A stretch of 52,176 nt of DNA from Flavobacteriales bacterium (GTDB taxonomy: Bacteria > Bacteroidota > Bacteroidia > Flavobacteriales_F > PHOS-HE28). The position numbers and the translations under genes are program-made. The stretch's first letter is position 1. Each line of letters opens with the position of its first letter. Under the pieces are notes generated by a model, which saw nothing but the letters and a program-made list of their open reading frames with translations, searched no databases and was not told the DNA's origin. Of the stretch, positions 32,385 to 52,163 are shown one piece after another. The stretch lies in the NCBI GenBank assembly GCA_020848295.1, contig JADLAI010000012.1:1-52176 (forward strand), in the 5' to 3' direction.

Positions 32385-32392
32385 CCTCTCAC
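32385..32392 (+). promoter_or_regulatory. CCTCTCAC element upstream of the 32518 gene
   Basis: CGTGCCTCTCACAC at 32381-32394 shares the 12-mer CGTGCCTCTCAC with the minus strand at 48054-48043, upstream of another T9SS gene. A second CTCTCAC directly precedes the ATG at 32419, an alternative start for this gene. Confidence 0.3.
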
Positions 32393-32517
32393 ACTCGTAT
32401 GGTGATCCATGCTCTCACATGATCAAACTCTCCACCTGTCGATCCGCCACCTCTCGGCGTAGGTGTGTGCTCCGGGCTACAAGGCCCACTGAGCCGAACA
32501 TTCCGACCAGTGATCGG

Positions 32518-35500: not shown

Positions 35501-35529
35501 TGGAAAGCACCCGCTTCGTGAAGCAATAA
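32518..35529 (+). CDS. Large secreted protein with PPC-like domains, T9SS type A
   Basis: 1003 aa from the ATG at 32518, followed by a signal peptide (VFRSLVVTMLLLGVGAPSKA); the in-frame ATG at 32419 would add 33 basic residues. About residues 30-560 contain repeated beta-sandwich domains like bacterial pre-peptidase C-terminal (PPC) modules: PDVWFRIDAPVAAHRFRIT, NKLYVRVWDQNARANNLTF, RDVWYSFVAPASGTIHLDV, MPGETYYVRVWVEG. A further such module is DGGIAWLIFRPTEDGTVAFW. A T9SS-associated module WATGSERNSDHFVVERSRNG precedes the type A sorting domain (LLFPNPTTGELFLTL, SGAYLLSVADQSG). It is divergent from the 1650-aa gene. Probably a surface or secreted binding protein; no active site seen. Confidence 0.86.
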   Translation: MGPHRASERYAVFRSLVVTMLLLGVGAPSKAQQISDDPSDATTGLTFNTNAGISTTLTASCTTGSLNPATGDFSLALAPVAPATSSTAGSYPPCGNFFTPPPNPASPAPDVWFRIDAPVAAHRFRITVISGTMTNGGIAVYEAPNATGPFRLMECATGGSSITLAQNQPAIDAVCYTPGNKLYVRVWDQNARANNLTFRLCVQGQTESTMPPRGASETACTAPTINASASFTNVDYVFACDESPWLFADSGGYVGGDLWLKLTVPPTGVVGMIIARGLAGTANTIGVTAYSATNCGDPLTYRQLGDFHGTLPASTPALPNLTLSCLVPGSTLYVRIHSVRTAQSATLRYGRIRFRWTIGPSPGGTPPSNNLPCGATPLTFGGSCPIGTTPMSTNLDACNTGGIPNPGCGNFDGNSRDVWYSFVAPASGTIHLDVAPYGMSLPGNPAMALYGTGGNGCSGRFTLLECDDRQGLVHGAAIIRTGLMPGETYYVRVWVEGTGSPVGQFTICLTEPTPPAGTCFYVMELWAANPPAADTYQGVQYEINGGAPVILQTPLGGEASEIYLIPVPTGGQLHIQYFNQNVGNYIYALYQLGDTTQVWQYHGGIPVFGPHPSPVYQHTVTSACNILTAPVTDCLGAETVCTPNTEVGNLRGAVSPGIRMDLDATNMGCLSAPEDGGIAWLIFRPTEDGTVAFWFDATANAPTTDLDFAIWDAGPVIYTPSLPNIDGSICAPNSPPVRCTSARLNQSTGLMPGLEGVYQEGTGGTGWLSPLPVLQEHVYLVALVRASGPIANVSYQMRWTQYTNSLGATSTTMLGCTSMILPVELLLLEATPTEGTVELHWATGSERNSDHFVVERSRNGKEFEAIGMVDAAGSSSQRIDYLFVDPAPFQGANYYRLRQVDQDHHEDMSNIVVAMFGGSSHLLLFPNPTTGELFLTLPPTKAEGPMMIGITDVMGRLVHTRTIAAGVGSALSISTDELPSGAYLLSVADQSGHYMESTRFVKQ

Positions 35530-35966: not shown

Positions 35967-38573
35967 TCAGTGCATCACTCGCAACATGGTGGATACGGTC
36001 CGTTGTCCGTTCCGCAGGACCACCACATAACTGCCCGCCGCCACGCGTGTGAGATCCAGTGGGATGACCTGCCCACCCGACCCGCTCATGCGCACCAGCT
36101 GCATCCGGCGCCCTGCAAGATCAAGTACTTCAATCTCCATGCGGCCCCCAAAACCATGAGGCAGCACGAGCGTGAAGACCCCATCCCCGGGATCCGGATA
36201 TATCGTCAAACGACCGGGGGCGATCTCTTCGATCCCCACACCGCATCCGTCAGAAAGTGCAATGGAGGTCAACGAACACAGGGCACTGGCCCCGTCCACG
36301 CCCACCACCACTGAAGTTCCGTTCGTGAACGGCCCGATCGTATACGGGCCGGTATTGGTCGCGGTGACCACCGGTGCCCCGGCGTCATTCGTGATCAGCA
36401 CCTGGTCGGCCGAACCGAGGTCGGTGAGATGCACCACGACCGAGAACCGGCCCAGATCACAGTCTTCCTCAACGCTGAACGTGGCCTCAGGTCCCAGGCA
36501 ACCGTCATAACATGAAACGATGTAGCTCCATTCGGCGGCCTGGCCCGTGACACAGCTTTGGCTACCATCGGCCAACACTTGCAACATGATGGTGTTGCTC
36601 GTGATCGATGAGGTGAAAAGCCTGCCATTGAGGTCTCCTCCATTCACCAGACCAAGCGGGGAGCTGGTGAATTCGTCCGGCCCATCATACACATTGAGCA
36701 CATCGCCAGAGGCCAGACCGCCCGAAAGGAAGCGGATGCCGATCCGATCGGAAGCCGTCTCTCCACTATACGCGAACTTGCTGCCATCACTGTTGTGGTA
36801 GCAATAGATGATCGTGTCGGGCCCGCACCCGACAATGGGGCAAACGCCGTTGCTCAGCAAGGTGGAAACTGCATCGCAATACATGTTCGTAGCATGGTTC
36901 GCCGTGACGATGACAGCAGTGCCATTCACGAAAGGACCCACCGAATACAGGCCGATGGTGCTGGCGACGACCTCCGGTGCACCGCCATCGTTACTGATGA
37001 TCACCGTTGGGGAGGACCCCATCCCGAAGACCTGCACGTTCACCGAGAATCGGCCTTCCTCACAATCATCCAGCACTTGGAATCCCGCAAGCACAGGCTC
37101 ACAATCCCAACATCCCACCTCCCATTCCATCGGCGTGATGAACTCTTGCATGGCACAGGAGCCGACCTCGTCAGCCACGAGCGTCATGGTGAGTTGCGTT
37201 CCGGAAGAATTGACCACCTGGCCCGCTATAGCACCATTGGCCGAGGAGAAAAGCATCGGAGACTGGTCGGTCGGCCCATCATAGATCCGCAGCAGGTCGG
37301 TATTGTGGATGATCCCGGAATGGATCACCAGACGTAGTGGAGTGGTGCTGGAGTAATGCCAAGAGCGCGTTTCGAGGTCCGAATAGCAGTGCTCGAATGT
37401 TTGGGGTGGTTGACCACAGACCACCTCCACGAAACCCTCTGTCGAGAATGGCATGCCGGCACCCCATGACGATTGACCTGTACCACAATCCGCACGCACA
37501 TACACGAAAAGCAATTGATCAACGGGCAACCCGTTCAAGGCGACACTGGTCCCGGGGACGGCCGACCCGCTCAGCAAGGCAGGTTCTGTTGATGCGCCCG
37601 TGGTGATGATGTAATCATAGCTCGATGCGCCGGGAACCGTATTCCAGGAAAGGGTGCCCGAGATCGCACCAGCACTATTGGTCAGGTCGGTCACCTGGAT
37701 CCCGTTGACCGTACAGCCCGGCGGTGTCCAAGTGAAAGTAAGTCCCTGTGGAAGGTTGGTCGCCGATGCTGGTGGTCTGCAGGTGGCGGCGTTGCTTCCA
37801 CCAGGCTGGCTCAAGGTCCAATCATAAGGCGCCGCGGACACGGAGCGGTTGTTGAAGTCGGTCGGGTCCATGCCACCCAGCCCCACTTGCCCGGCCAGTG
37901 CTGTATTCTGTGCCATGCCTCCATAGACGACCTGCACGATCTGTTGTGCAGGATCTCCACCGCCCTCGTGCAACCGGATCTGGAAACTGAGCAGACCTGA
38001 TCCCCCCGAACGCAGCACGTTCCACTCGGCGATGAAGATGCGGTTCGGGGCGGCAAAAGCCGTTCGTATCTGGATGGGCCAGGTACCACCGTTCCCCATG
38101 GCCGCCAGATCCATGGCAAAGCCGGCTACGCGGTTCCGTCGCGCTGGATCGATCCCTGCTGGTACCGCAACGCTCAGTGGCTGGTAGGCTTCACTCCCGA
38201 TCGGCACATACACGGCAGCGAGCCCATCGCTCGACTTACCAAAAGCAAGCCACCCTTCCATACTCAGGCCCACACGATCATACTGCTGACCATTGAAGTT
38301 GAAAGGGAACCCGATCGGCCAGCCATTGCCCGAGGTGGCACCACCCATCGGTAACTGTTCCCCTTGGGTCACGAACGAGTTATCGTCGAACGCGAACTCC
38401 GGTGGAAGACCTGGCATGCCCATCGGGGTACCACTCCCTGCGATCGGCTGCCAGGTACCCACCTCCTGCGTGAAGGAATACGCCGCAACCTGTGCCTTCG
38501 TGGTGGTAGGTGCGTTCATGGCGAGCACCATGCCCATCGCGAACACCGATCGAATATCGCATCGTCTTGACAT
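35967..38573 (-). CDS. Secreted CUB-like/FN3 protein, T9SS type A (paralogue 1)
   Basis: 868 aa with a signal peptide (VFAMGMVLAMNAPTTTKAQ). About residues 30-270 form an N-terminal beta domain (AYSFTQEVGTW, GFPFNFNGQQYDRVGLSMEG, NRVAGFAMDLAAMG). About residues 295-385 is a fibronectin-III-like module. Two repeats of a CUB-like domain plus an Ig-like domain follow (QTFEHCYSDLETRSWHYSST, LLRIYDGPTDQSPMLF; DTIIYCYHNSDGSKFAYSGE, VLNVYDGPDEFTSSPLG). The C-terminus is a T9SS type A domain (LTIYPDPGDGVFTLVL). The architecture repeats almost exactly in the next gene upstream, so the pair arose by tandem duplication. CUB-type modules usually bind proteins or glycans; no catalysis is apparent. Confidence 0.85.
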   Translation of the reverse strand: MSRRCDIRSVFAMGMVLAMNAPTTTKAQVAAYSFTQEVGTWQPIAGSGTPMGMPGLPPEFAFDDNSFVTQGEQLPMGGATSGNGWPIGFPFNFNGQQYDRVGLSMEGWLAFGKSSDGLAAVYVPIGSEAYQPLSVAVPAGIDPARRNRVAGFAMDLAAMGNGGTWPIQIRTAFAAPNRIFIAEWNVLRSGGSGLLSFQIRLHEGGGDPAQQIVQVVYGGMAQNTALAGQVGLGGMDPTDFNNRSVSAAPYDWTLSQPGGSNAATCRPPASATNLPQGLTFTWTPPGCTVNGIQVTDLTNSAGAISGTLSWNTVPGASSYDYIITTGASTEPALLSGSAVPGTSVALNGLPVDQLLFVYVRADCGTGQSSWGAGMPFSTEGFVEVVCGQPPQTFEHCYSDLETRSWHYSSTTPLRLVIHSGIIHNTDLLRIYDGPTDQSPMLFSSANGAIAGQVVNSSGTQLTMTLVADEVGSCAMQEFITPMEWEVGCWDCEPVLAGFQVLDDCEEGRFSVNVQVFGMGSSPTVIISNDGGAPEVVASTIGLYSVGPFVNGTAVIVTANHATNMYCDAVSTLLSNGVCPIVGCGPDTIIYCYHNSDGSKFAYSGETASDRIGIRFLSGGLASGDVLNVYDGPDEFTSSPLGLVNGGDLNGRLFTSSITSNTIMLQVLADGSQSCVTGQAAEWSYIVSCYDGCLGPEATFSVEEDCDLGRFSVVVHLTDLGSADQVLITNDAGAPVVTATNTGPYTIGPFTNGTSVVVGVDGASALCSLTSIALSDGCGVGIEEIAPGRLTIYPDPGDGVFTLVLPHGFGGRMEIEVLDLAGRRMQLVRMSGSGGQVIPLDLTRVAAGSYVVVLRNGQRTVSTMLRVMH

Positions 38574-38639: not shown

Positions 38640-41351
38640 TCAATGTTGAATGCTCACCCGTGCATGGATGCGCTCGCCATTCCCGATCGCCCAAACGGTG
38701 TACAAGCCACTTGGCAGGTTGGCGAGATCCATGGTGATGGCCCCGGTCGTTGTAGCGGTGATCTGCTGAGCCACCATACGTCCGGACATATCAAGGACCT
38801 GTAGCTCGGTGCGGCCGGTGATCCCGTTGGGGAGTTCTACGCGGAATACGCCATCGTTGGGGTTGGGGAAGAGTTGCAGCCGGGACCGGTCAACCTCCTC
38901 CACTCCGACGAAACAGTCCGGGTTCATCGCATAAGAGGTCCAGGAGCAGAGTGTGCTCGCACCTTCCACCTCGATGGTCACCGGCGACCCAGTGGTGAAT
39001 GGACCCACGGTGTAAGTTCCCACCTGGCTCGCTGGCACGTTCGCAGCGCCTCCGTTGTTGGTGATGTTCACATTGCCTCCACTACCCATCGCAGTGAGCG
39101 TGACGTTCACCTCGAACTGGGTTCCGCTCAGGCAATTCGTTGCGAAGGTGGCGGTGGGCTGGGTGCAGCCGTCGTAACAGCCCACCACATAACGCCATTC
39201 GGCAGAAGCACCGAACAAGGTGTCAGGGTCGGCGCAGCTTTGCGCGTTGTCGGCTACCACCTCCAGGACCAAGGTATGGTCCGTATTGGGTGTACCGGAA
39301 GTGCGAAGGACATTGATCAGGCTGGAAGGAAGTGCGGTGGAGGTGGCGCTATTCGGATCGGCTCCGTTGTAGGTCCGCGCGAAGTCGCCCATTCCTACGC
39401 TACCCTCAATGAACCGGATACCGATCTCCTGGCCACCGGTGCTGGTGTATGCACGTTGGGCCCAATCATTGTCCGCGTAGCACAACGTGTATTCCGTGGG
39501 TCCGCAATCCGCAGTGGCACATGGCATATTGATCATGGGAACGCTGATCATGCTGCAAGTGGCATTCGCTGCGTTCTCCATGGTCACGATCACGGATGTT
39601 CCAGCTTCGAATGGACCGACCTGATGCAGACCCGTGGTGGTGACCGCAGGAATGGAGATCTGTTGCGAGTTCACCACATTCAAGGAAGTGGCAGTACCCA
39701 TGCTGAAGACATTCACACCGACGAAGAATTCATCTTCATCACAGTTCACATCACCTGCGGTGAAGGTGACCAATGGGTCCGTGCAATTCTTGCAACCCAC
39801 GCGCCACTCGATCGGAAGGTACCAGGGTTGGGCTTCGCACGCTCCAGCATCGGTCGTCAGTTGGATGAAGATCTCTGGGCCAACTGAGGTGTAGGTGACC
39901 CCAGTGAGGTCGCCCGTCGGGCTGAAGGCGGCCGCCCCTACCGGTGCATTCCCGTTCCAGATCCCGAAGGATTCACCTGATACCGATCCGACCAAGCCAC
40001 CCAGGAAGTCGATCTTCACGGGTGAGAACCCATCCTCGGAGACGTAATGCCAGGTGTAGGTGGAGAATTGTGCGCTACAGATCGTCGATTCAGTGGGTGT
40101 ACCTGGGCAGCTCAGGAAGCCGCCGCCACGGGTGGTGAAGGGGGTTCCCAAGCTCCAGCCACCAGGTGCACCATCGCAATAGCTACGAACGAAGATGAAG
40201 TACGCTGTGGTCGGCTCAAGACCTTCGATGAACGCTTCGGGGTCGGTCACGGTTCCAGAGGCCACTTCAGGGCCGTTGGGATCATTCACGGTGGAAACGA
40301 GGAAATCGTACGCCTCGGAACCATTCGGGTCCCATGAAACCGAAGCTGCATTGAAGTCCAACGTATTGATCACGAACGGCCATGCGGGAGGTGGGCAGGC
40401 CTGTGGTGTCCAACGGAAGGTCAACCCCTCCACCGGCGGCACACCGGAGCCGTCGGGCTGGCCTGGTTCAGGTGCCGCGAATTCACAGTAGGCCAGCATG
40501 GTATCCATGGGTACGGTCTGGTTCCAGTCGTGCAGGAAGGCCGGTTCCTCGAACACGGTCATGCGCCCGTTGAAGTCCGCATTGGTCCTTCCGCTCAAGC
40601 CCACCTGTGTACGCACATAGCGTCCGAGGTCAGAGACCCAATCCATGTGCCCATAAACCACTTCGACCGAGTTATCGGCTTCGTTCAGCCGGATCTGGAA
40701 GTTGATCTTATTGATCGAAACGGTCACGTCGTTGAACAGACCGAAGTCCTTCCATTGTACCACGCAGACCCTATTGGGTGCCGTTCCGATCGTGGCCACC
40801 CGGATGTTGGAGTACGGGCCCGGAGGCACCAGAGAGGTCCAATTCACCAATTGGAGTCCGCTGTTGCCGAAGCCGGCCACACGGTTCCGCTTGTAGGTGG
40901 GCTCTGGACCATTGTACCATTGAATGAGTGGATCGGCCTGGACCGTACCGCGATCATTATAGACCCAAACGGCCTGGAGGGCATCGGTCGACTTGCCGAA
41001 GCTGATCCAGCCACCATTGGAGATGCCGATCCGATCGAAGACGTCCCCGTTGAAGGTGAAGTCGAATCCAATGGGATAACCTGGACCGATGGCGGGGCTG
41101 AAGTAGCCACTTTGCGTCACTTGGCCATCGGGATCATTGAACGGGTTGTTCACCCAGGCACGGTTGTTGAACACCTGGGGCCAATAGGTGGGTACACCCA
41201 GGCTCACACCGCCATCGGCTTCGGAGATCTCGGTGTAGGTCCCCACGGATTCCTCGAATTCGTACAGGCTCACTTGGGCCTGAACGGGTCGGCCCACCAT
41301 AAGGGCCGACAACAGCCCTCCGAGGGCGATCGCGTAATTCTGTTGGGTCAT
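38640..41351 (-). CDS. Secreted CUB-like/FN3 protein, T9SS type A (paralogue 2)
   Basis: 903 aa with a signal peptide (AIALGGLLSALMVGRPVQAQ). The domain order equals that of the neighbouring 868-aa protein: N-terminal beta domain (YEFEESVGTYTEI, YPIGFDFTFNGDVFDRIGIS, RNRVAGFGNSGLQLV), an FN3-like module (TTAYFIFVRSYCDGAPGGWS), then two CUB-like plus Ig-like units (ESTICSAQFSTYTWHYVSED; PTEYTLCYADNDWAQRAYTS). It closes with a T9SS type A domain (LQLFPNPNDGVFRVELPNG, SGLYTVWAIGNGERIHARVS). The 5' leader is rich in A and C. Many paired cysteines (for example GCYDGC, GCKNC) suggest disulphide-stabilised extracellular domains. Likely a surface binding protein. Confidence 0.86.
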   Translation of the reverse strand: MTQQNYAIALGGLLSALMVGRPVQAQVSLYEFEESVGTYTEISEADGGVSLGVPTYWPQVFNNRAWVNNPFNDPDGQVTQSGYFSPAIGPGYPIGFDFTFNGDVFDRIGISNGGWISFGKSTDALQAVWVYNDRGTVQADPLIQWYNGPEPTYKRNRVAGFGNSGLQLVNWTSLVPPGPYSNIRVATIGTAPNRVCVVQWKDFGLFNDVTVSINKINFQIRLNEADNSVEVVYGHMDWVSDLGRYVRTQVGLSGRTNADFNGRMTVFEEPAFLHDWNQTVPMDTMLAYCEFAAPEPGQPDGSGVPPVEGLTFRWTPQACPPPAWPFVINTLDFNAASVSWDPNGSEAYDFLVSTVNDPNGPEVASGTVTDPEAFIEGLEPTTAYFIFVRSYCDGAPGGWSLGTPFTTRGGGFLSCPGTPTESTICSAQFSTYTWHYVSEDGFSPVKIDFLGGLVGSVSGESFGIWNGNAPVGAAAFSPTGDLTGVTYTSVGPEIFIQLTTDAGACEAQPWYLPIEWRVGCKNCTDPLVTFTAGDVNCDEDEFFVGVNVFSMGTATSLNVVNSQQISIPAVTTTGLHQVGPFEAGTSVIVTMENAANATCSMISVPMINMPCATADCGPTEYTLCYADNDWAQRAYTSTGGQEIGIRFIEGSVGMGDFARTYNGADPNSATSTALPSSLINVLRTSGTPNTDHTLVLEVVADNAQSCADPDTLFGASAEWRYVVGCYDGCTQPTATFATNCLSGTQFEVNVTLTAMGSGGNVNITNNGGAANVPASQVGTYTVGPFTTGSPVTIEVEGASTLCSWTSYAMNPDCFVGVEEVDRSRLQLFPNPNDGVFRVELPNGITGRTELQVLDMSGRMVAQQITATTTGAITMDLANLPSGLYTVWAIGNGERIHARVSIQH

Positions 41352-41429: not shown

Positions 41430-43094
41430 TCAATGTTGCAGGCTTATTGGCGCGGTCAGGTGTAGGTTCGTGCCCAGCGCCGACAGGGTGTATGGACCGT
41501 CGGGCAAATGAGCGGCATCGATGGTGATGAACTCGGCGGTCGTTGGGATCGATCGCTGCAAGACCACCCGCCCCGCAAGGTCGATCAGGCGGAGCTCGGC
41601 ACCTCGAACCAATGCAGCAGGCAACTCCACCCCGATGACCCCAGTGGATGGATTCGGGAAGACCCGCAGGTGCGACGTGGTCGCCTGTGTGGCTACATGA
41701 GCTGCCGCTGCACAAGGTGCGGGACTACCAGCCAATACCAAGGTTCCTGTCGCATCCGGATCGAGCCACGGCTTGAGCTTTATCGCTGCGGTGTTCGGGT
41801 TATTGGTCCAGTGGTAGCTCATCTTCCCGAAATAAGCCGTCCCCGTGTTGTTCACACAGGTCATGCCTGCGCTACTACCGGTCAAAGTGCCGATCAGCAG
41901 TGGCCCGTTCGCCGTGTTCGGTTTGAACAGGCCCGCACCGCTGGATCCGAATTCGGTGACCCCATGACCATTCGATGTGGCCGCCCACTTCGCTTTGTAG
42001 TGCGACATGAGCCCCGACGATGCCATGGGATGTCCGGTGGTGAGTGTTTGTGTGTACGAACTGATCCGCTTCGGGGCACCGGTGGGATGATGGATGCATA
42101 CCCCATCGGCGGTCACAGCGGAGATGTTGGTGGCATCCCATCCTGCCCAATACGGTTGGAATTGATCAGGGATCGCGGCCGTGGTGCGCAATAGCATGAA
42201 GTCCGATCCTCCAAGACCTCCTAAGTTCGGGGCATAGTCGTTGCTGTAGGCGACGCGCTCTGCCCCGGTCAGGAACTGGGCCGTGCTGTACGCCCCACCG
42301 GTACATGTCGCGTACTGGAAGTTGAAATAGAACTTGTACTGGTTGAATTGGGCAGCAGTGGAAGTACGGCCACAATGGAACGCTGAAAGGATGAAGGGGG
42401 CACAATCCTGGCGCACATTGTTCACCAAGGTGCCGGTACACCAGCCATTTCCTTCTGGTGTGACGACGCTGATCCGTACAGTAGCCTTGATCACATCCTC
42501 CCAGCCGATCGATTCGGGCTCACAAGCCACGTTCACATGGCAGGTGCCTTCGCGTTGGATCCCATCCACATACCGATAGGCATGAGCCACTCCTTGAATG
42601 GAAAAGCGGCCCTCGAACGCGGCATCGAAGGGTTCGCGGTACTCCAGCACGATGTCATCCGCGAACACCATCGGGGACGAGGTTTCATGGATGGAAGAAG
42701 GCAGGTCAAGCGATACCATTGGGGCAAGTTCCCGCCCATCGTCACCACGCAGGAGCAACGTGGCCCCCGGTGGCACCAGCACGTGTTCCAGGAGGAGTTC
42801 CATGGCCAGCGCACCCTGGGATCGCACGCGAATGCGGCAAACGCGCTCCGCCCCTTCCGCATACCATCGGCCATGTTCCGATGTGGTGAGCGACAAGGTT
42901 TGCGTGCGGGCATAGAGTTCAAGTTCGCCGATGGCCGCACGGTGCTGGTCATCGATCCGCACGGCGGCCGCATCGAACACCGCTGCTTGGTACGGATGTA
43001 GTTCGGGCCAGCGGACCACCTGGCCCATACTGGCGGTGGCACACCAACAGGAGGTGGTCACAACGATGGGTGCTATGATGCGAAAAGGTTTCAT
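41430..43094 (-). CDS. Secreted trypsin-like serine peptidase, T9SS type A
   Basis: 554 aa from the ATG at 43094, which opens into a signal region (FRIIAPIVVTTSCWCATASM); the upstream part of the frame overlaps the preceding gene. About residues 30-190 form a pro-region. The S1 catalytic triad is visible: His240 in FILSAFHCG, Asp298 in GGSDFMLL and Ser385 in FGSSGAGLF, with conserved GNGWCTGTLVNN ahead of the His as in lysyl endopeptidase-like enzymes. The C-terminal domain is T9SS type A (LRVFPNPSTGVIGVELP, LPDGPYTLSAL). Its start overlaps the stop of the anchor-L gene by four bases (ATGA), so it is the third gene of the operon. Specificity cannot be judged; the active-site Ser context is atypical (GSSGAG rather than GDSGG). 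Confidence 0.9.
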   Translation of the reverse strand: MKPFRIIAPIVVTTSCWCATASMGQVVRWPELHPYQAAVFDAAAVRIDDQHRAAIGELELYARTQTLSLTTSEHGRWYAEGAERVCRIRVRSQGALAMELLLEHVLVPPGATLLLRGDDGRELAPMVSLDLPSSIHETSSPMVFADDIVLEYREPFDAAFEGRFSIQGVAHAYRYVDGIQREGTCHVNVACEPESIGWEDVIKATVRISVVTPEGNGWCTGTLVNNVRQDCAPFILSAFHCGRTSTAAQFNQYKFYFNFQYATCTGGAYSTAQFLTGAERVAYSNDYAPNLGGLGGSDFMLLRTTAAIPDQFQPYWAGWDATNISAVTADGVCIHHPTGAPKRISSYTQTLTTGHPMASSGLMSHYKAKWAATSNGHGVTEFGSSGAGLFKPNTANGPLLIGTLTGSSAGMTCVNNTGTAYFGKMSYHWTNNPNTAAIKLKPWLDPDATGTLVLAGSPAPCAAAAHVATQATTSHLRVFPNPSTGVIGVELPAALVRGAELRLIDLAGRVVLQRSIPTTAEFITIDAAHLPDGPYTLSALGTNLHLTAPISLQH

Positions 43095-46000
43095 CGTAGC
43101 AGAACGACATGGCCGAGTCCTTGTGCAAGCGGCAATTTCTGGCCCTTGACCAGGTACTTGTACTGGTACACCCCGTTCATCACCTGCTCTCCGTCCTGGG
43201 TCCCATCCCAGCGATGAACGAGGTCGTTGCTCTGGAAGATGATCCTGCCCCAACGGTCGAAGACCCACAGTTCGTAGCGGTCCAGTAGTGCCCCTTCACC
43301 ACCGAAGGTCTCATTGATCCCGTCGCCATTCGGGCTGAAGGCATTGGGGAAATAGATGGTGGCCTCCGGTGGGGTCGTCCGTATGCTATCAACGGCCAGG
43401 CAACCCTGCTCGGTCACCATGTACAGGTACACCCAATGGGCATCCATATCGTCATACTGATGGGACACTTGGCTGGCATTCTGCGCCGTGGTACCATCGC
43501 CCAGATCCCACTCCAGCTCATTCCCGGTCGTGGGTATCATGCGTGCCTGGAATGACCAGTTACTATCGCCATGGTCCGTGGCCGTGATCCAGACCTGTGC
43601 TGGATAGGCTGCAAGCTGCACCGTTCCACTGACCGTCTCGCCGCAAGCATCGGTCACGATCACCTGGGCCTCGTGGTCGTCGTGCCCAGCCGTCCATTGC
43701 ACGGTATCTCCTGCGCCAAGGCCGGGCCAGTTGAACGTATGGCCTCCAGCACCTCCGCTCACCTGCGCCCATAACGACACTTGCTCTCCGGGGCAAACCG
43801 TGGTATCGTTCGACGTCACCAGTTCAAGAGGATCGTGATCCTCCACCATGGCCAACAGGGTGGTGTCCGCCGTATTTCCACATTGGTCGGTCACGGTCAC
43901 TGTGAAGAAAGCATCATCCGCAACCCGCACCTCCAGGGTGGGGCCATCGTTGTTCCCAGTCCCAGGAGGCGACCAGGCGTAGCTGTACGTACCTCCTCCG
44001 CCGGTCACCTGGATCACCTGCAACAACAACGGCATATCGGCGCACAGGACCGTATCGCCTTCGGCATGTAGCAGGAGTGGCGGGGTCGGCCCCGTGGTGA
44101 CCACCACTTGCCCTGTCATGGATTGACCACATTGGTCGGTCACTTCCACCTGATATACCTCGAGCACTGCGGCCGGTACATTGATGGAGGCCCCTGTTCC
44201 GATCAAGGTTCCGGCACCATCGGTCCAACTTTGGCTGATCACACCTCCACCACCGCTCACCACCACCTCCAGATCGGCGGTGCCCAGGCATGGGATGGCG
44301 GTATCCGGTGACAAGGTGATCACCAAGGGCACAGGAGGTGCTTGAGAGACGAGCACCGAATCGCTGGTCACCACCCCGCAGAGATCGGTAACATGGGCGA
44401 CGTAGTATAGTGGAGCGATCGGTGCGGTCACATTCAACGTGGGGTCCGTTCCCTGCACGGCACCACCTTGTGTCCATGCGTAGGTATAGCCCCCGGATCC
44501 AAGTGCCGCGACCACTTCCAGGTCGGCATTGCCCAGGCATGGGATCGCGGTGTCGGGGGTCAGCGTCAATACCATCGGGTCGTATGGTGGCAGGGTGACC
44601 CAAGCACTGTCCGTTACCGGGAAGGCCCAGCAGCTATCACTGACCGTAACCCAGAATTGCGTGGTCTGGTCCACATACGGGCTGATGGTCGGCGTGGACT
44701 CGCCGGTGCTCCACAGGTAGGTGAACGCAGCGGGGTCATTGGAGCCGCCTGTCACCTCTGGTGTCAACAACACCACGGCGGGGCAATCCAGGTCAACATC
44801 GTCCAAAGTGACCATCAAGGGATCACGTTGATCGATCGTGAAGTTGTACGTCTGGATCTTGGCACCGTTGCAGGTGATGATGTTCACCACGAGATCCTCC
44901 AGGCCATCGGCATCAAGCGGCACCGCGATGGGGACGACCACCAACGAGTCGAACGGGCTGAAATGAATGCTGTCCGGCAAAGCCTGGAGATAGTCCACTG
45001 CGGATGTGGCACTCCCACCAGTGCTGATCTGTAAGTATTCATCCAAGTAGAACCCGCCCCAGCGACGGAACTGTAGGTGGACGCTATCACAATCACTCTC
45101 GATCAAGATGGTGTCGTTCGCGGCATACTCCACGTTGGGGCCGGGGGCCACATCCATGCTGAAACGATCACTGCTCGTGAATGAACCCTGTTCCAGAAAA
45201 ACCGCCGAGGGGAACCAATTGTCGTTGACGTTGCCGATGCCCATCTTGATGTGGTACGATTGCCCACATTGCACCGCCGCACTTGCCGTGAGCACAACGG
45301 TCATCCCGTTGTGCTGTATGTAATAGGGATCCGTGTTGTAAGGTGCTGCGAGTTGTGGTGCACCACCGCCCGGTTGTGGATAAGGCCATTGTCCTCCAAA
45401 ACTCCGGTAATACTGTGCATTGCTCTGCCAATTGGGGTCGGAAGTACAATAGACGAATGCATCGGTCCAAGGTCCGTTCGCATTGTTGGCATCCATCAGG
45501 CCGCTATTGATCGTATTGATGGACACACGCGAATTGGACCCCGGGACCAACGCCAGGTTGATGGCATTGTTGGCGAAGGGCCCATTGATACCAGGGCCGC
45601 TCAGGAAGAAACCGAAGACATCGTTGTATTGACTACAGGCCCAGCGCTCATATTCTTCCGAGGAGAACACGTAACGCACACTGATCATGTCCTTGATCGG
45701 GACAAAGTCGAACTCAAGAACGGATCTGTTCCCGATGTTGCTTCCCCCACTGGCGAACCAGTTGGGATCGCCGGTCAGTTGGCTGAGGTCAAGGTCCGGA
45801 CTATTCCAGAAGCCACCACCACCAAGACCACCGCCCAGCTGCAACAGCAGATCATTGGGTCCTGGAATGTGCGTGGATGCATCGTTGGTGCAGAGGAAGA
45901 CACCACCGGGAAGGTCAAGGTTGCAATTGGTGCCATTGAAACGGCCGATCTGCCCCAAGGTCGTGAACAAGGGTGCCACCACCGATCCTGGATCACCGTT

Positions 46001-46171
46001 GAAGGTGACATTGCTGGCGAAGACCCCGGAACCCATCAATACGTTCTGCACGAGCACGTTCGGGGTCTGGGTCTGATTGAGGATGATCTGTGCGTTCGTA
46101 CGGATCGATGCCAGGCCACCGGACACGGCAAGCAGCATGCTCAACACGATCGGTGGCCAATACTTCCTCAT
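43091..46171 (-). CDS. Choice-of-anchor L protein with gliding-type (T9SS B) C-terminus
   Basis: 1026 aa with a signal peptide (PPIVLSMLLAVSGGLA). About residues 35-270 match the choice-of-anchor L domain (NVLVQNVLMGSGVFASNVTF, FVPIKDMISVRYVFSSEEYE, YNDVFGFFLSGPGINGP). About residues 440-850 contain serial Ig/PKD-like modules; two adjacent ones begin almost identically (LTPDTAIPCLGNADLEVV, LSPDTAIPCLGTADLEVV). A PKD unit follows (LEWDLGDGTTAQN) and then a gliding-motility-associated C-terminal domain (IYFPNAFSPNGDGINETFGG, LWVFDRWGRIIF, GVYQYKYLVKG), which targets the type IX system. It overlaps both neighbours by ATGA, in the middle of a three-gene operon. A large surface fibre or matrix protein is likely. 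Confidence 0.88.
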   Translation of the reverse strand: MRKYWPPIVLSMLLAVSGGLASIRTNAQIILNQTQTPNVLVQNVLMGSGVFASNVTFNGDPGSVVAPLFTTLGQIGRFNGTNCNLDLPGGVFLCTNDASTHIPGPNDLLLQLGGGLGGGGFWNSPDLDLSQLTGDPNWFASGGSNIGNRSVLEFDFVPIKDMISVRYVFSSEEYERWACSQYNDVFGFFLSGPGINGPFANNAINLALVPGSNSRVSINTINSGLMDANNANGPWTDAFVYCTSDPNWQSNAQYYRSFGGQWPYPQPGGGAPQLAAPYNTDPYYIQHNGMTVVLTASAAVQCGQSYHIKMGIGNVNDNWFPSAVFLEQGSFTSSDRFSMDVAPGPNVEYAANDTILIESDCDSVHLQFRRWGGFYLDEYLQISTGGSATSAVDYLQALPDSIHFSPFDSLVVVPIAVPLDADGLEDLVVNIITCNGAKIQTYNFTIDQRDPLMVTLDDVDLDCPAVVLLTPEVTGGSNDPAAFTYLWSTGESTPTISPYVDQTTQFWVTVSDSCWAFPVTDSAWVTLPPYDPMVLTLTPDTAIPCLGNADLEVVAALGSGGYTYAWTQGGAVQGTDPTLNVTAPIAPLYYVAHVTDLCGVVTSDSVLVSQAPPVPLVITLSPDTAIPCLGTADLEVVVSGGGGVISQSWTDGAGTLIGTGASINVPAAVLEVYQVEVTDQCGQSMTGQVVVTTGPTPPLLLHAEGDTVLCADMPLLLQVIQVTGGGGTYSYAWSPPGTGNNDGPTLEVRVADDAFFTVTVTDQCGNTADTTLLAMVEDHDPLELVTSNDTTVCPGEQVSLWAQVSGGAGGHTFNWPGLGAGDTVQWTAGHDDHEAQVIVTDACGETVSGTVQLAAYPAQVWITATDHGDSNWSFQARMIPTTGNELEWDLGDGTTAQNASQVSHQYDDMDAHWVYLYMVTEQGCLAVDSIRTTPPEATIYFPNAFSPNGDGINETFGGEGALLDRYELWVFDRWGRIIFQSNDLVHRWDGTQDGEQVMNGVYQYKYLVKGQKLPLAQGLGHVVLLR

Positions 46172-48018
46172 CGCACCAGGGTCACGTGTCCGGTGATCGT
46201 CCCGATCCGGGTATCATCAGGAGTGACGATATAGTAGTAGGTGCCGTCCGGTGCATCGCCACCGGTCCAGCCTTGCTCCAAAGAGCGGGTGCTGAACACC
46301 TGCTGGCCCCAGCGATTGTAGATCTCGAGCAAGGCCGTGGTGCCGTCAGGCTTCATCGGCAGGAATCGATCATTGCGCGCATCGCCGTTCGGGCTGAACA
46401 CGTTGGGCATCTCGATCGCTCCGGAGGCGATCACACGCACCACGGACCGCACCGTATCCACGCATCCGTTCGCGTTGCTCACCACCAAGAACACCGGGTA
46501 TTCCCCTTCGACCGCAGGGAATGTCACGGAAAGCGAGGGGTCGGTCGAGGAAGAAGGTTCGGCCACACCCAGGTCCCACCACCAGTTCACCACATCGCCG
46601 GTCCCGGTACCTGTAAGGGTCACCACCGGATCCTCGATCATCGCCGGATCGGGTGTGGCGGTCACCTGGCCGGAGACCGCGGGGAAAACGACCACGGCAT
46701 CCTCGAGCATCGTTTCCCCGATGCACCCCGCCCCATCCTGCACACGAAGCGTAACATCGTAGGTACCTGGTGTGGAATAGGTATGCACGAAAGCGCTGTC
46801 GTTACCGGCCGGGCCGACACCTACATCCCAGGAAAGCGTGGTGACCCCAGCGCCAGTGGTATCGGCGAAGGCCACCGTGAGCGGGGCGCATCCGGTCGCT
46901 GGCACAAGCGCAGGACGGGGGGTCGGTGGGATCGGAGGTGGAATGTAGGACGCTCCCATGAGACATTCTCCGTTGAGTGAACTGGCCAGGGTGTAGGTAC
47001 CACCATCCAATCCCAATGCACTCACGTTCAAGTTCGGGCTTGTCTGGCCGACAACGGCGACCCCGTTCCGATACCACTGAAGGTTGGTGGCTCCCGGTGG
47101 TGGTACACCTACGGTCGCGGCCGTGCCTGCGCACATGGATCCACTGGCCATGACCGGCAGTAGTGCTTGATCTCCTGCCACCGTCAACATCAGCTCATCC
47201 ACCACGAAGTAGGGGGTGGCGAAGTAGGTGTCACCAGCAGCGTTGGTGATGCTACGGCCAACGAATGAGGCCGGGGTATCACAACCACCACCGATCATGA
47301 TCGAGTGCATGTCCTCTGTGGGGGTGAAGGTGATCGACACCCGGGACCAGTCCCATGCGGGCTGCACCATCACACGACCCAGTTCCGTCCATGCCGGATC
47401 GAACCCGATACAATCCATGGTTCCGATGGGGAATTGTACACAAGCGTTCGCATGGCCGAAGATGGCCAGGGGTAGCTGGTCGGTGAAGTAGGAAGGATCG
47501 GCCTGCGCCAGGGTCTGCGAATGCACATCATTCACGGCCGCTGTGGAGATCCACATCGAGATGGTGTAGGTGACGCCCGCCAGAAGCGGGTTCGCCGGAA
47601 GAGGGTAGGTAAGGCAGGTGCCCACATATTCGAAGTATCCGGGGAAGGCGAAGAAGCCCACCGCACCATCCCCATCGGGAGGGGGCAGGTTGAATCCTTC
47701 GGGCGAGTAGCCGCATTCGTGGAAATAATCCGAGGTGGCGTTCGTGGCCTGTTGCCAGCCTGAGGCACAACTCAGCCAGGGTGGTGAAACCATGGAGACG
47801 AAACCGAACGGGCAGCACATCTGCTCCTCGAATGAGTGATTGCGGATGTAACTGGGGGTACCTTCGCCGAACACGGCCGTTGCACACGGACAGTCCGGGT
47901 CGTTCAGGTCGATGAGCCCATCGGTATCATCGTCGATGGCGTTGTTGCAGATCTCCTGGGCACTGACCCATAAAGGGAGCAGGGCCAGGGTAAGCGGCAG
48001 TATCCGGGTGTGGTTCAT
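46168..48018 (-). CDS. PKD-domain surface protein with gliding-type (T9SS B) C-terminus
   Basis: 616 aa from the ATG at 48018, which precedes a signal peptide (HTRILPLTLALLPLWVSAQ). The mature start is EICNNAIDDDTDGLIDLNDP, a Cys/Asp-rich Ca-binding-like motif common on Bacteroidota surface proteins. A jelly-roll-like region follows (TYTISMWISTAAVNDV, DWSRVSITFTPTEDMHSIMI), then two PKD modules near residues 385-540 (CAPLTVAFADTTGAGVTTLS, VNWWWDLGVAEPSSS), then the gliding-motility-associated C-terminal domain (MPNVFSPNGDARNDRFLPM, LEIYNRWGQQVFSTRS). It is the first gene of the three-gene operon and overlaps the next gene by ATGA. An inverted repeat and a CCTCTCAC motif lie in its 5' region. 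Confidence 0.87.
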   Translation of the reverse strand: MNHTRILPLTLALLPLWVSAQEICNNAIDDDTDGLIDLNDPDCPCATAVFGEGTPSYIRNHSFEEQMCCPFGFVSMVSPPWLSCASGWQQATNATSDYFHECGYSPEGFNLPPPDGDGAVGFFAFPGYFEYVGTCLTYPLPANPLLAGVTYTISMWISTAAVNDVHSQTLAQADPSYFTDQLPLAIFGHANACVQFPIGTMDCIGFDPAWTELGRVMVQPAWDWSRVSITFTPTEDMHSIMIGGGCDTPASFVGRSITNAAGDTYFATPYFVVDELMLTVAGDQALLPVMASGSMCAGTAATVGVPPPGATNLQWYRNGVAVVGQTSPNLNVSALGLDGGTYTLASSLNGECLMGASYIPPPIPPTPRPALVPATGCAPLTVAFADTTGAGVTTLSWDVGVGPAGNDSAFVHTYSTPGTYDVTLRVQDGAGCIGETMLEDAVVVFPAVSGQVTATPDPAMIEDPVVTLTGTGTGDVVNWWWDLGVAEPSSSTDPSLSVTFPAVEGEYPVFLVVSNANGCVDTVRSVVRVIASGAIEMPNVFSPNGDARNDRFLPMKPDGTTALLEIYNRWGQQVFSTRSLEQGWTGGDAPDGTYYYIVTPDDTRIGTITGHVTLVR

Positions 48019-48042
48019 GTAAGCCGAGAGCAGGCCCTTGGG

Positions 48043-48054
48043 GTGAGAGGCACG
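48043..48054 (-). promoter_or_regulatory. CGTGCCTCTCAC element 24 bases before the operon start
   Basis: On the minus strand CGTGCCTCTCAC (48054 to 48043) ends 24 bases before the ATG at 48018. The identical 12-mer occurs on the plus strand at 32381-32392 ahead of another T9SS gene. Confidence 0.3.
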
Positions 48055-48083
48055 CAATGTAGCCATAATCGAGCAGCTCGTCA

Positions 48084-48113
48084 CCATTTGTAGAATATTC
48101 GCTACAAAAATGG
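48084..48113. promoter_or_regulatory. Inverted repeat upstream of the three-gene T9SS operon
   Basis: CCATTTGTAG (48084-48093) and CTACAAAAATGG (48102-48113) are inverted copies separated by 8 bases; the right arm has two extra A. This AT-rich palindrome stands in otherwise GC-rich DNA, 66-95 bases 5' of the operon start and just after the histidine kinase gene end (48141). A related word, CTACAAAATG, occurs 5' of the response regulator gene at 51925-51934. This suits a two-component regulator binding site, though no regulon data were available. Confidence 0.45.
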
Positions 48114-48140
48114 GGACGTTCCGAGAACGGGGGAAGTTGC

Positions 48141-51100
48141 CTATGATCTTGGCACGGGGAATCCGTCCTGCGGCAGGTCCAAGATAATGCGGGTACCCAT
48201 CCCCTCGGCGCTCTCCACGGCAAGCTGGCCTCCGAGCAGTTGCATCAGGTCGGCCATGATGAGCAGCCCCAGGCCTTGCACATCCCGTTCACCTTCGTGG
48301 TCCATGGCTCCGAGCGCACCCTGTGCCTGCACCCGCTTGGCATGGCGCAGCACCGGTCCGGGCATGCCAATGCCGTCGTCCTGCACGATGATCCGGTATC
48401 CCTCGCCCCGGCTCTCGCCAAATAGCGAGATGGTCGATGCCGCACTGTGGGTGACCGCATTGGCCACGGCATTGTTCAGGATGATCGCCAGCACGTTCGG
48501 ATCGGTACGTATGGTATCATCCACGGGCACCGCGTTCACCAGGCGTACCGTACTATCCGCAGCTCGTTCGTGTTCTCGCGCGAACACTTCCCCTACGAGC
48601 AGATGGACCACCACGTTGCGGGGCCGTAGCTCGATGCGACCATCCTGGCGTTTGATCCATTGTAACAGTCCCTGTGCATTGGCGTGCAACTTCTCCGAGG
48701 AATTGGCCAGGTCGGAGAGGGTGCTGGAGAGTCGTCGTTCCGCGTCCTCCGGCACACGACGCGCCACGCCGCTTGCCACCCGGGCAATGAAGCGCAATGG
48801 GGTCACGATGTCGTGCGAGATGATCGAAACGAGCATCTCCTTCATCTCCAAGGACCTTCGCAGATCGGCATTGGCCTCGATCAGCTCACGGGTGCGATCG
48901 GAGACCTTCTGTTCCAGTTGCGCATTGCGTTTGCGCAGCCGACGTGCGTTGAGTTGGACGAGACCCACGAAGGCGAGGACGGTGCCTACGGCCAAAAGGA
49001 AAATGAACCAAGGCCTTCTGAACAACGGTGCCGACACATGGATGGGAAGTTCGACGACCCCCTCCCTGTTCCGTAGATGGCCACCCACCTTTCGGATCCG
49101 CAGGATGTGGTCTCCGATGGGAATGCTCGCGAAATGCAATTCACGTTGTCCATTGGCCAAAGTGGTCCAAGCCCCCTCTTCCTGATCGAGTGCGTATTCC
49201 AACCGCGCGTTCTCCGGCCCTCCCCAATAGGCAAGGGAAAGGTACACGACCAATTCCCGATGGTCCCAGGGAAGGTTGAGTTCGCGTACGCCTCGCACTT
49301 GGCCGTTGACCACAACGGATTCGATCCGTATGGGTCGGGTCGGGAAGGCATCCGGGATAGCCTCGGGCCTGAACCACACCAGGCCGTCCATGGTCGGGAA
49401 CGAGGCCCATCCATCCTCGGTCCGCACGTAGGAGGGGTAGCATCCACCGTTGAACTCCGCATTATTGATGCCCGCACGTTTGCCATAGTAGGCATAGAAA
49501 ATGGCCTGGGTGGTATCGCTGACCCATGCTTCCAGGTCCTTCAGCGCCATTCGGAAAAGGCCCTGATTGGTGCTCATCCAGAGCGAGCCCATGGAATCGG
49601 GCATGAACGCATGCACATGGGTCAGGAAGCCCTGTTCATCCTGGGGCAGTCGCAGGACCCTTCCGTTGGCCCGTACCAAATAGGCACCAGCACCATAGGT
49701 ACCGACGAACACCTGATCACCGATCACCTCCAGGGTACGGGCACAGATCCGTTCCAGACCCGGCACGGCCTCCCATCGGCCCTTCGCTGTAAGCCGGTAC
49801 ACTCCGAAACATGTGGCCATCCAGATCTCCTTCTGCGGGGTCCGGCACAGCGCGTTCGGTCGTGAGGACAGGTCGTCGCCGGTCAACGGATAGGTCAGGT
49901 CCACCACCCCTTGATGCACCCGGTGAAGCCCTGTAGTGCTGCCGACCCAGACCACGTCGCCCTCATCCAGGAAACACATGGGCTTAAGCCCGACCCGAAG
50001 GTTCGATTCATTCCGGCGCACGGGATCGTAGGTGACCAGGGTGTCACCTCGCCCATACCAATAAACGCCATTGCGGTCCAACAGGATCGCCACATCATTG
50101 AACCCGCGGATATCGGGGATCCGGTCCGAACAACCGGACGGATCGAATACGCGCACACCACGACGATTGCTGGTGACCACCCGGTCCTTGCCGAAGGGAG
50201 CTTGGGCATTGTACGCGTTGTTCACCCCATCGGCCAGGCTGCTGCACAGCAGGCTTCGCATGAACTGGTTGCGGTAGATGAACAAGCCCTTGGTGTCTGT
50301 GCCGATGGCCACGACATACCCTGGTTCAAGCCACACCACGGAGCTCACCTTGGCGTTCGTCGGTAGGATCAGTGGCACATGGGTGAAGGTGAGCGTATCA
50401 CCCTTCGCATTGGTCGCCATGGTGTACAGCCGATCCGCAGCGATCAGTGACGCTGTCATCGTCTGGGGATCCCAGAACAAGCGCCAATTCAGATGGCCAT
50501 TGCGTACATCCACCACCGGTGCCCCAACGGCCACCATGTTGGTGGTGCTCTTCCGTTCCGGATCGACACGAAAAGCTCGACCTTGCTCATCGAATCCGAT
50601 AAGGTGCGTACCCAAGCGCATGATATGAACGCTTCGGCCTGGCGGTAGGTCCATCGAGCCCTCCAGGACCGTGTCCTGGTAGACCAGTAGTGTCCGGTCG
50701 GTACGCAGACACCATCTGTGGTCATCCATGGTCACCGCACGGATCACATTGGGCCAGGAGGATTTCGATCGGAACGCGGAATCGGGGTCCAGCGCCTTCA
50801 CCGTTGCCGATCGGGAACCAAGCGAACCGGTGAACCGGGAGGTGTATTGCCGGGTAGGCGCATCGGAAGTGATCGAGGAGAGGGAATCCTCACGAAAGAG
50901 GTATTGTCGGGAACCGGCATCGCGGATCACATAGGCGCCATCGGTGGTGGGCAGGACCTCCAGCACACGTGAGGGTTTCATGCCTTCGGCCGCCCGGATC
51001 CCGATCTGTTTGAACCGCGCGCCATCGAACCGGACAAGGCCACCTTCCGTACCGATGAGCAAAGCGCCCCACCGGTCGAGCACCATATCATGCACCCGGT

Positions 51101-51236
51101 TCTGGAGCAGCCCGTTCTCGGACATGTACTGCTCCGCTGTCCATGTATCCTGACCACTGGACCAGGTCGGAAGGAAGATCCCGTACAGCAGCGGCAGCGC
51201 TGCGACCATGTGGTGCGAGAACTGCCTCCGTAGCAT
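48141..51236 (-). CDS. Beta-propeller sensor histidine kinase
   Basis: 1031 aa. A signal peptide (MVAALPLLYGIFLPTWSSGQ) leads into a periplasmic two-component-type beta-propeller (about residues 30-610; for example VHDMVLDRWGALLIGTEGGL, LWMSTNQGLFRMALKD) and a Y_Y_Y domain (NARLEYALDQEEGAWTTL, IPIGDHILRIRKVGG). One transmembrane helix (WFIFLLAVGTVLAFVGLVQL, near residue 750) and a short coiled coil (LEQKVSDRTRELIEANADL) connect to the kinase core: H box SIISHDIVTPLRF with phospho-acceptor His808, N box LNNAVANAVTHS, G boxes DDGIGMP and GLGLLIM. There is no receiver or DNA-binding domain, so it is not a hybrid HTCS. Its start overlaps the response regulator stop by one base. The ligand is unknown. 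Confidence 0.92.
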   Translation of the reverse strand: MLRRQFSHHMVAALPLLYGIFLPTWSSGQDTWTAEQYMSENGLLQNRVHDMVLDRWGALLIGTEGGLVRFDGARFKQIGIRAAEGMKPSRVLEVLPTTDGAYVIRDAGSRQYLFREDSLSSITSDAPTRQYTSRFTGSLGSRSATVKALDPDSAFRSKSSWPNVIRAVTMDDHRWCLRTDRTLLVYQDTVLEGSMDLPPGRSVHIMRLGTHLIGFDEQGRAFRVDPERKSTTNMVAVGAPVVDVRNGHLNWRLFWDPQTMTASLIAADRLYTMATNAKGDTLTFTHVPLILPTNAKVSSVVWLEPGYVVAIGTDTKGLFIYRNQFMRSLLCSSLADGVNNAYNAQAPFGKDRVVTSNRRGVRVFDPSGCSDRIPDIRGFNDVAILLDRNGVYWYGRGDTLVTYDPVRRNESNLRVGLKPMCFLDEGDVVWVGSTTGLHRVHQGVVDLTYPLTGDDLSSRPNALCRTPQKEIWMATCFGVYRLTAKGRWEAVPGLERICARTLEVIGDQVFVGTYGAGAYLVRANGRVLRLPQDEQGFLTHVHAFMPDSMGSLWMSTNQGLFRMALKDLEAWVSDTTQAIFYAYYGKRAGINNAEFNGGCYPSYVRTEDGWASFPTMDGLVWFRPEAIPDAFPTRPIRIESVVVNGQVRGVRELNLPWDHRELVVYLSLAYWGGPENARLEYALDQEEGAWTTLANGQRELHFASIPIGDHILRIRKVGGHLRNREGVVELPIHVSAPLFRRPWFIFLLAVGTVLAFVGLVQLNARRLRKRNAQLEQKVSDRTRELIEANADLRRSLEMKEMLVSIISHDIVTPLRFIARVASGVARRVPEDAERRLSSTLSDLANSSEKLHANAQGLLQWIKRQDGRIELRPRNVVVHLLVGEVFAREHERAADSTVRLVNAVPVDDTIRTDPNVLAIILNNAVANAVTHSAASTISLFGESRGEGYRIIVQDDGIGMPGPVLRHAKRVQAQGALGAMDHEGERDVQGLGLLIMADLMQLLGGQLAVESAEGMGTRIILDLPQDGFPVPRS

Positions 51237-51883
51237 CAGGATCCAATGTTGCGATGGAGCAACACCAGGCTCTGGAGGTCGATGATGTTCGACACGCCCA
51301 GTTTATCGAATAGCCGAGCCTTGTACGTGGCGACCGTGGTGGGCTGCACCCCGAGCCTCATGGAGATCTCCTTGACCCCCTTCCCTTCCAGGAGGTCCTC
51401 CATCACGGCGATCTCCCGATCGGAAAGCTGGGCGAATGGGTCTCGCACCTGAACCGGCCCACGGTCGTGTTGATGCATCTCGGCCCGTGGACTCATGTAC
51501 TCGAACCCCTGCAGCACCCGTCGGATCGCCCGGACCACTTCTTCCTCACTGCTCTCCTTGCTCAAGTATCCTACACTTCCGAGCATCATCACCCGTTGTG
51601 CGTAGACAGCTTCGGACCGCATGCTATAGATCAACACCTTCATTTCCGGATTGGCCTTGCAGATCCGTTCAAGATGATCCAATGCACTGCCATCGGTCAT
51701 TTGCAGGTCCAGGATCAACAGATCGGGCACCCATTCGCGTAACGTGGTATCCAGGTCCTTAAGGGTGGCCACTTCCCTGATGGCCGACGCCCTGAACTGA
51801 TCCTGGATGAGGTTGAGCAAACCCCTTCTCACGATCATGTGATCATCGGCGATCAAGAATTTGTCCGGCATTGGGTATTCCAT
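51236..51883 (-). CDS. LuxR/NarL-type response regulator
   Basis: 215 aa if started at ATG 51883; ATG 51871 (PDKFLIADDH) is equally likely and 51910 is possible. The receiver domain has IADDH acidic residues, phospho-acceptor Asp59 in LLILDLQMTDG, the switch Ser in LIYSMRSEA and the conserved Lys in GYLSKES. The C-terminal LuxR-type helix-turn-helix is LSDREIAVMEDLLEGKGVKE and VQPTTVATYKARLFDKLGVS. It is the cognate partner of the histidine kinase whose gene follows with a one-base overlap. Its probable targets are genes of the adjacent T9SS operon, judged only from position and shared upstream words. Confidence 0.92.
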   Translation of the reverse strand: MEYPMPDKFLIADDHMIVRRGLLNLIQDQFRASAIREVATLKDLDTTLREWVPDLLILDLQMTDGSALDHLERICKANPEMKVLIYSMRSEAVYAQRVMMLGSVGYLSKESSEEEVVRAIRRVLQGFEYMSPRAEMHQHDRGPVQVRDPFAQLSDREIAVMEDLLEGKGVKEISMRLGVQPTTVATYKARLFDKLGVSNIIDLQSLVLLHRNIGS

Positions 51884-51922
51884 GGTCCTGAATGTGGCAC
51901 ACGCCTGCATTCGTGGCTAAAA

Positions 51923-51935
51923 TTCTACAAAATGC
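51923..51935 (-). promoter_or_regulatory. Half-site like the operon palindrome, 5' of the regulator
   Basis: TTCTACAAAATGC on the plus strand resembles the right arm of the 48084-48113 inverted repeat. A near-direct repeat, CTAAAATT, stands immediately before it (51917-51924). Location 40-50 bases before the response regulator start is compatible with autoregulation. Confidence 0.35.
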
Positions 51936-51972
51936 CCCACATGCACCGGTCTAAGTTTGCCACGAACTCTCG

Positions 51973-51980
51973 GTGAGAGG
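51973..51980 (-). promoter_or_regulatory. CCTCTCAC element upstream of the response regulator
   Basis: CCTCTCAC on the minus strand, 90 bases 5' of the regulator ATG at 51883 and in the gene's orientation. It is one of the copies of this word found 5' of T9SS or regulator genes. Confidence 0.25.
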
Positions 51981-52085
51981 AGGGTTCGTTGAACCGGTTC
52001 CTTGCGTCGTGTGCCCTATGGTCTGTGTGCTGGAAATGAGAGATTCCGGTGCGCAACGATGACTTGGGGAAGCACACGCACTGGA

Positions 52086-52163
52086 TTGGCCGAGGTCCTA
52101 CCTCTGGGTCATGGGGCGTTGAGAGCGCTTGAGAGACCATGAACCCAGAGGTGGACCAGCCAA
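52086..52163. repeat. Long imperfect inverted repeat at the right edge
   Basis: TTGGC...GGTCC and ACCTCTGGGTCATGG (52086-52114) are inverted against CCATGAACCCAGAGGT...GGACC and GCCAA (52137-52163), about 25 paired positions with a few bulges around a 22-base loop. It may end a gene beyond the window or be a palindromic repeat element. No coding function is supported between 51884 and 52176. Confidence 0.6.

Follow-up and report, generated by a model that had tools for sequence, protein, structure and literature searches.

A two-component locus of uncultured Flavobacteriales with a dedicated operator and a predicted small RNA complementary to secreted-protein leaders

What is known of small-RNA regulation in the Bacteroidota comes mainly from Bacteroides, and to our knowledge the control of the Bacteroides small RNAs themselves is mostly open. 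Surface-protein genes of Bacteroides are controlled by HTCS proteins, in which the kinases are of the Reg_prop periplasmic propeller type. In the gammaproteobacterial GacS/GacA system, the GacA site is an 18-bp palindrome, TGTAAG-N6-CTTACA, positioned upstream of the small RNA (PMC4950607), and in the LisRK-LhrC1-5 system of Listeria the two-component-induced small RNAs repeat a short motif and target a surface-protein mRNA at its initiation region (PMC4132741). Closer phylogenetically, GibS and FopS of B. thetaiotaomicron pair at mRNA initiation regions, that of the surface gene susC included (PMC11697453). In F. psychrophilum, the mRNAs of several secreted proteases and adhesins are predicted partners of one stem-loop of the structured small RNA Rfp18 (PMC9723704). 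A literature search found no control layout of the kind described below reported for Bacteroidota.

The present study analyzes a stretch of 52,176 nucleotides (the window) from a 2.59-Mb, 66%-complete draft genome of Flavobacteriales, with a comparison sample of 45 genomes of the genus, nearly all of them drafts from uncultured organisms. We consider it probable, at roughly 0.7, that the locus is a dedicated two-component and small-RNA circuit for secreted surface proteins, in which the RNA pairs with the leaders of its targets and probably limits their translation, a reading drawn from sequence comparison. Features of the locus are collected in Table 1.

Table 1. Position of genes, operators, promoter boxes, leaders and the predicted RNA in the window.
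Feature	Coordinates	Strand	Remarks
Predicted small RNA with GAGAG loops	51964..52161	+	3' end and terminator beyond contig end
Divergent -7 box TAAGTTT	51952..51958	+	22 bp from regulator-side operator
Operator, regulator side, 18-bp	51912..51929	-	TGTAGAATTTTAGCCACG; conserved 5' of regulator in syntenic loci
NarL/LuxR-type response regulator	51236..51871	-	receiver PF00072 and GerE HTH PF00196; ORF opens at 51910
Reg_prop propeller (periplasmic) sensor kinase	48141..51236	-	Reg_prop and HATPase_c
Operator, secreted operon side, 18-bp	48089..48106	-	TGTAGCGAATATTCTACA on gene strand
-7 box TACATTG, secreted operon	48055..48061	-	27 bp downstream of operator
PKD-gene leader, 31-nt, two CUCUC sites	48019..48049	-	second site 7 nt before AUG
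PKD / T9SS type-B surface protein	46168..48018	-	PKD_4, CHU_C, T9SS type B domain
Choice-of-anchor-L / T9SS type-B surface protein	43091..46171	-	NF038133 1e-49; ATGA overlap with PKD gene
Lysyl-endopeptidase-like S1 serine peptidase	41430..43094	-	PDB 4nsy E=1e-31; weak T9SS type-A tail
FN1, T9SS type-A secreted protein	38640..41351	-	gene order conserved in relatives
FN2, T9SS type-A secreted protein	35967..38573	-	
GBD_T9SS_assoc / T9SS type-A protein	32518..35529 (start 32518 or 32575)	+	predicted trans target
Leader of divergent T9SS gene, four CUCUC sites	32386..32455	+	
FN3 -7 box TAATGTTGG	32067-32075	-	
FN3 leader, five CUCUC sites (32017-32057, 31829-31870)	31823..32066	-	operator absent
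FN3, large fn3/GEVED T9SS type-A protein	26870..31822	-	predicted trans target

The original prediction placed five genes on the minus strand, a regulator and kinase pair and then genes for a PKD protein, an anchor-L protein and a peptidase, and all five were found where it put them, with both ATGA overlaps in the secreted operon real. The regulator and kinase reading frames share a TGATG overlap. For the regulator the best NCBIfam match is UvrY/SirA/GacA, at 119.8 bits against a cut-off of 280 and thus below equivalog level, while the kinase has the H-box SHDIVTPLR, lacks a receiver or HTH of its own, and is unchanged around H808 across 15 homologues. The HCG/SDF/GSSG triad motifs of the peptidase align with PDB 4nsy. 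The operon had been described as three genes; this stands for the trio joined by ATGA, and two further T9SS genes, FN1 and FN2, follow the peptidase. T9SS sorting domains (CHU_C, TIGR04131, TIGR04183 or PF18962) are present on the operon proteins and on the FN3 and GBD proteins, with the C-terminal sorting tails of the peptidase and FN2 scoring under the Pfam cut-off, and in the window the T9SS gene cluster, which is putatively co-regulated, reaches about 26.9 kb. Outside this cluster, at 21554-23800, there is a TonB-dependent receptor with a carboxypeptidase-regulatory-like domain (SusC-like). Assigning a function to the PKD protein by fold search was abandoned, as the matches were only Ig/PKD-like domain chains, GhpA grappling-hook fragments among them, and the global rmsd was far too large.

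Synteny of the locus is kept in more than 10 species, its named counterparts belonging to metagenome-assembled genomes of uncultured Flavobacteriales and Bacteroidetes, and this supports the two-component pair and secreted operon as a conserved unit with one dedicated, shared operator. The idea of a system contained within five genes fails, because CUCUC leaders tie in other secreted-protein genes. The window has a single copy of the palindrome noted earlier 5' of the operon, TTTGTAG-N8-CTACAAA (48087-48108), a sequence found in 0 of 100 shuffles and without a second copy in the 66%-complete host draft genome. What had been called a half-site 5' of the regulator proved to be the 18-bp operator in full, if slightly degenerate; comparison of the intergenic regions showed that both sites are one element, TGTAG-N8-CTACA, facing opposite ways with respect to the genes.

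A degenerate pattern, TGTAGWATNWTNNCBACR, was searched over the 45 genomes and gave 31 sites in 15 of them and none in 30, counts that are non-independent because the species are related; the backwards pattern had 5 matches in total. Typically a genome with the operator has one site by the regulator and one before the secreted operon. Each of the 12 genomes whose kinase orthologue has at least 50% identity contains the operator, partly by construction since some of these loci served to derive the pattern, and the 23 other genus genomes of the kinase-orthologue search lack it; the remaining three of the 15 operator genomes likewise carry the system. The lack of sites elsewhere and the presence of extra ones do not depend on how the pattern was derived. 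These extra operators are few, lie on other contigs, and each precede PKD or anchor-L genes, which are duplicated in some relatives; a second PKD copy is preceded by an operator in loci L039 and L040. L032, L037 and L040 lack an operator immediately following the kinase, the site in L040 being the one before the second PKD copy. With L032 (G000:C171) the host genome has a further copy of the system, a paralogue (regulator 80%, kinase 62%) with its own RNA and PKD gene. Palindromes of the TGTAGTAAAATTACTACA type were also seen about 100 nt upstream of three Chitinophagaceae kinases (L156, L162, L165). In one operator-preceded gene (L085, G032:C152:2425 and downstream) about 15 consecutive G lie close to the start, possibly a phase-variable tract.

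Both kinds of operator keep a constant distance to a promoter box. On the operon side the -7 box, of the Bacteroidota TAnnTTG type, lies 26-29 bp downstream of the operator across loci and points into the operon; a TAnnTTGY promoter class is documented in F. psychrophilum (PMC9723704). Because this conserved box and the leader lie between 48087 and 48018, the start of the PKD gene, originally put at 48087, was corrected to 48018. On the regulator side the operator is 21-22 bp from a divergent box in orthologous loci, and this box points away from the regulator. No -7 box toward the regulator was found at constant spacing from the operator in the loci compared, and autoregulation through this operator was rejected on that ground; the geometry is that of a divergent promoter, predicted to make a small RNA. 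At distant regulator-kinase paralogues, with kinases about 30-39% identical, the operator and a 21-bp spacing are seen again; L163 and L167, from two other Bacteroidota, have them too, there before an apparent divergent signal-peptide gene in place of the RNA.

Downstream of the divergent box there was an unannotated stretch of about 200-270 nt in 16 loci, which appears from its sequence to be a previously undescribed structured noncoding RNA. Its structure covaries, with a consensus fold of -27.6 for one set of 9 sequences (column shuffles -3.4+-2.2, opposite strand -16.5) and -61.7 for another of 6 (column shuffles -18.5+-3.7, opposite strand -43.2). U-run terminator hairpins were found in L037 and L082, and GNRA and UUCG loops occur on the divergent strand; the terminator of the window RNA is not visible because the RNA extends to near the contig end. 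There was no Rfam 15 match above gathering score. A peptide-coding role was rejected, no conserved ORF being present in the RNA. Model R1 of the RNA matches the window at 52092-52157; the possibility of extra copies elsewhere was dropped, as this model finds copies beside regulators only and in clade A only. GAGAG occurs 63 times in the 16 RNAs, mostly unpaired, where 14.8 copies would be expected, and CTCTC once. The divergent stretch at distant paralogues (L044, L045, L046, L048, L148, L179) has a single GGAGAG hairpin, in several cases with a terminator.

Leaders on the PKD side show the complement, with 30 CTCTC and 0 GAGAG. CUCUC sites are often found at the predicted 5' end of the transcript and again near the AUG, and many abut or overlap the start codon. 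Within four stitched cluster regions, 20 of 26 CTCTC clusters were in same-strand leaders, in a classification made by eye that leaves out clusters merely antisense to the RNA; the binomial p for this enrichment is about 1e-21 with 5% leader space as an assumption. A trans-target search of the 45 genomes requiring two ACTCTCCA recovered, by motif alone, the cognate operons and orthologous FN3 leaders in four system genomes. These four leaders precede very large T9SS proteins and have a -7 box and no operator. Outside the system genomes the pair was found once in G059 and in a low-complexity tract in G066. A looser pair, CTCTCCA twice, was discarded as a marker since it was about equally common in genomes without the system, so that two short motifs alone are not diagnostic. 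Secreted-protein genes with CUCUC leaders lie up to about 40 kb away, one of them on another contig. The leaders of gamma-glutamyltransferase genes have three to six sites in clade A and zero to two in clade B. In an unlinked gamma-glutamyltransferase gene (L267, G000:C126:219-1808) a -7-like box is closely followed by four CTCTC sites, which suggests a trans target outside the cluster.

The bases flanking the two motifs changed in step. G precedes none of the 30 GAGAG copies of clade A and 19 of the 30 of clade B, while C follows CTCTC in 3 of 44 and 35 of 38, respectively, clade A having mostly A (29 of 44). This is what would be expected if RNA and leaders pair, with Fisher values overstating independence because the change is essentially one event between two clades. 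The longest perfect pairings sum to 254 nt, compared with 188+-5 in composition shuffles, and reach 14 nt in clade B; those of clade A are 7-9 nt and individually not significant. RNAduplex energies were strong for several clade B leaders and weak and poorly discriminating for clade A, and energy was dropped as target evidence for the latter reason.

It could be argued that there is no functional small RNA, the region being the 5' leader of the regulator, with CUCUC bound by a pyrimidine-tract RNA-binding protein or affecting initiation and GAGAG a mere complement. The divergent RNA is antisense to the regulator's own probable leader, so that its GAGAG is by necessity CUCUC on the regulator-leader strand, and in nine clade-B loci a plus-oriented -7-like box (TAnnTT) about 300 bp upstream of the regulator makes a long CUCUC leader plausible. 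We regard this as improbable, however, since the individual sequence of each of the 16 loci folds better on the divergent strand, the clade B alignment has 58 G-U versus 9 A-C cells on that strand, and the GNRA and UUCG loops and U-run terminators are likewise on it. Moreover, the 21-22 bp spacing is fixed divergently, the side facing the regulator lacking a consistent box, operator, box and GGAGAG hairpin are retained divergently at distant paralogues, and the two other Bacteroidota have a signal-peptide gene in that position. Full complementarity to a probable regulator leader, itself supposed from the plus-oriented box, could also mean that the RNA acts as a cis-antisense brake confined to the regulator-kinase message and that CUCUC repeats elsewhere are unrelated. 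This is very improbable, given that, within the same genomes, several unrelated genes for secreted proteins have leaders marked by CUCUC clusters, that motif search alone recovered the orthologous FN3 leaders, and that the base flanking CUCUC follows that of the RNA.

A further alternative accepts pairing with the leaders and reverses its sign, the RNA activating or stabilising target mRNAs in a coherent feed-forward with the regulator. Sites at the 5' end of leaders, where a duplex could block degradation, are consistent with this, as is the lowering of two secreted-protease mRNAs on deletion of Rfp18 in F. psychrophilum (PMC9723704). We nevertheless consider activation unlikely, as many sites touch or cover the start codon, a position at which pairing normally prevents initiation, and Bacteroides FopS and GibS pair at initiation regions and repress (PMC11697453).

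From the operator, promoter geometry, RNA structure, motif complementarity and co-occurrence read in these genomes, the circuit of the preferred reading, in which the RNA limits translation, may be drawn as follows. The propeller kinase would phosphorylate the NarL-type regulator, which would then bind TGTAG-N8-CTACA at two kinds of place. Bound 26-29 bp before the -7 box it would activate the PKD/choice-of-anchor-L/peptidase/T9SS operon, and bound 21-22 bp before the divergent box it would activate the noncoding RNA of about 200-270 nt. In the cell, GAGAG loops of this RNA would pair with CUCUC repeats in the operon leader and in those of operator-less secreted-protein genes. Limited translation initiation is the likeliest effect, argued from the position of the CUCUC sites alone and favoured because they are close to start codons. 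The operon would then be under incoherent feed-forward control and the other CUCUC-leader genes controlled directly by the RNA. More tentatively, a single RNA driven by the regulator, through its several GAGAG loops, might form a multivalent code with many mRNAs that have two to eight CUCUC sites apiece, a shared pairing network that sets the ratios of large T9SS surface proteins and whose code and targets drift together between clades, as a CsrA-free analogue of Gac/Rsm.

If the circuit is true, a complete linked system of sensor, operator, RNA and targets would be available, with sequence rules precise enough for searching other genomes and for trial by point mutation, and the Gac/Rsm layout of a NarL-type regulator driving a multi-loop RNA would exist without CsrA. 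It would also suggest how uncultured Flavobacteriales co-ordinate very large secreted proteins.

In HTCS proteins a single chain comprises the kinase, the receiver and an AraC HTH, whereas the locus has a separate regulator with a GerE HTH. The nearest flavobacterial parallel, likened by description, is Rfp18, for which a linked regulator and repeated CUCUC leaders are not described in the accessible part of the source (PMC9723704). GibS and FopS have a single-stranded 5' seed and a terminator, and in the available portion of their report no dedicated two-component regulator is described (PMC11697453). LhrC sets UCCC against a G-rich leader, where here GAGAG faces repeated CUCUC; LhrC1-5 also differ from the present single locus beside its regulator, with many targets in one cluster, in Bacteroidota. 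GacS/GacA-RsmX/Y/Z (UvrY-CsrB) of gammaproteobacteria share with the locus a NarL-family regulator, an 18-bp palindrome and repeated purine loop motifs. The palindrome here, a putative binding site, is likewise at fixed promoter spacing but differs in sequence (TGTAG-N8-CTACA), the RNA gene diverges from that of its own regulator, and the motif in clade A is GAGAG rather than GGA. CsrA/RsmA (PF02599) was found in 0 of the 45 genomes, with three control genomes positive, and titration of CsrA by the RNA was rejected on this basis. Since CsrA is absent from these genomes and the conserved loop motif is GAGAG without the repeated GGA of Gac/Rsm small RNAs, the system is not a member of that family, and the CUCUC on the targets, being complementary to GAGAG, argues for base pairing and not protein titration. 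By analogy, the best reading of the logic of the locus is Gac/Rsm-like or LhrC-like.
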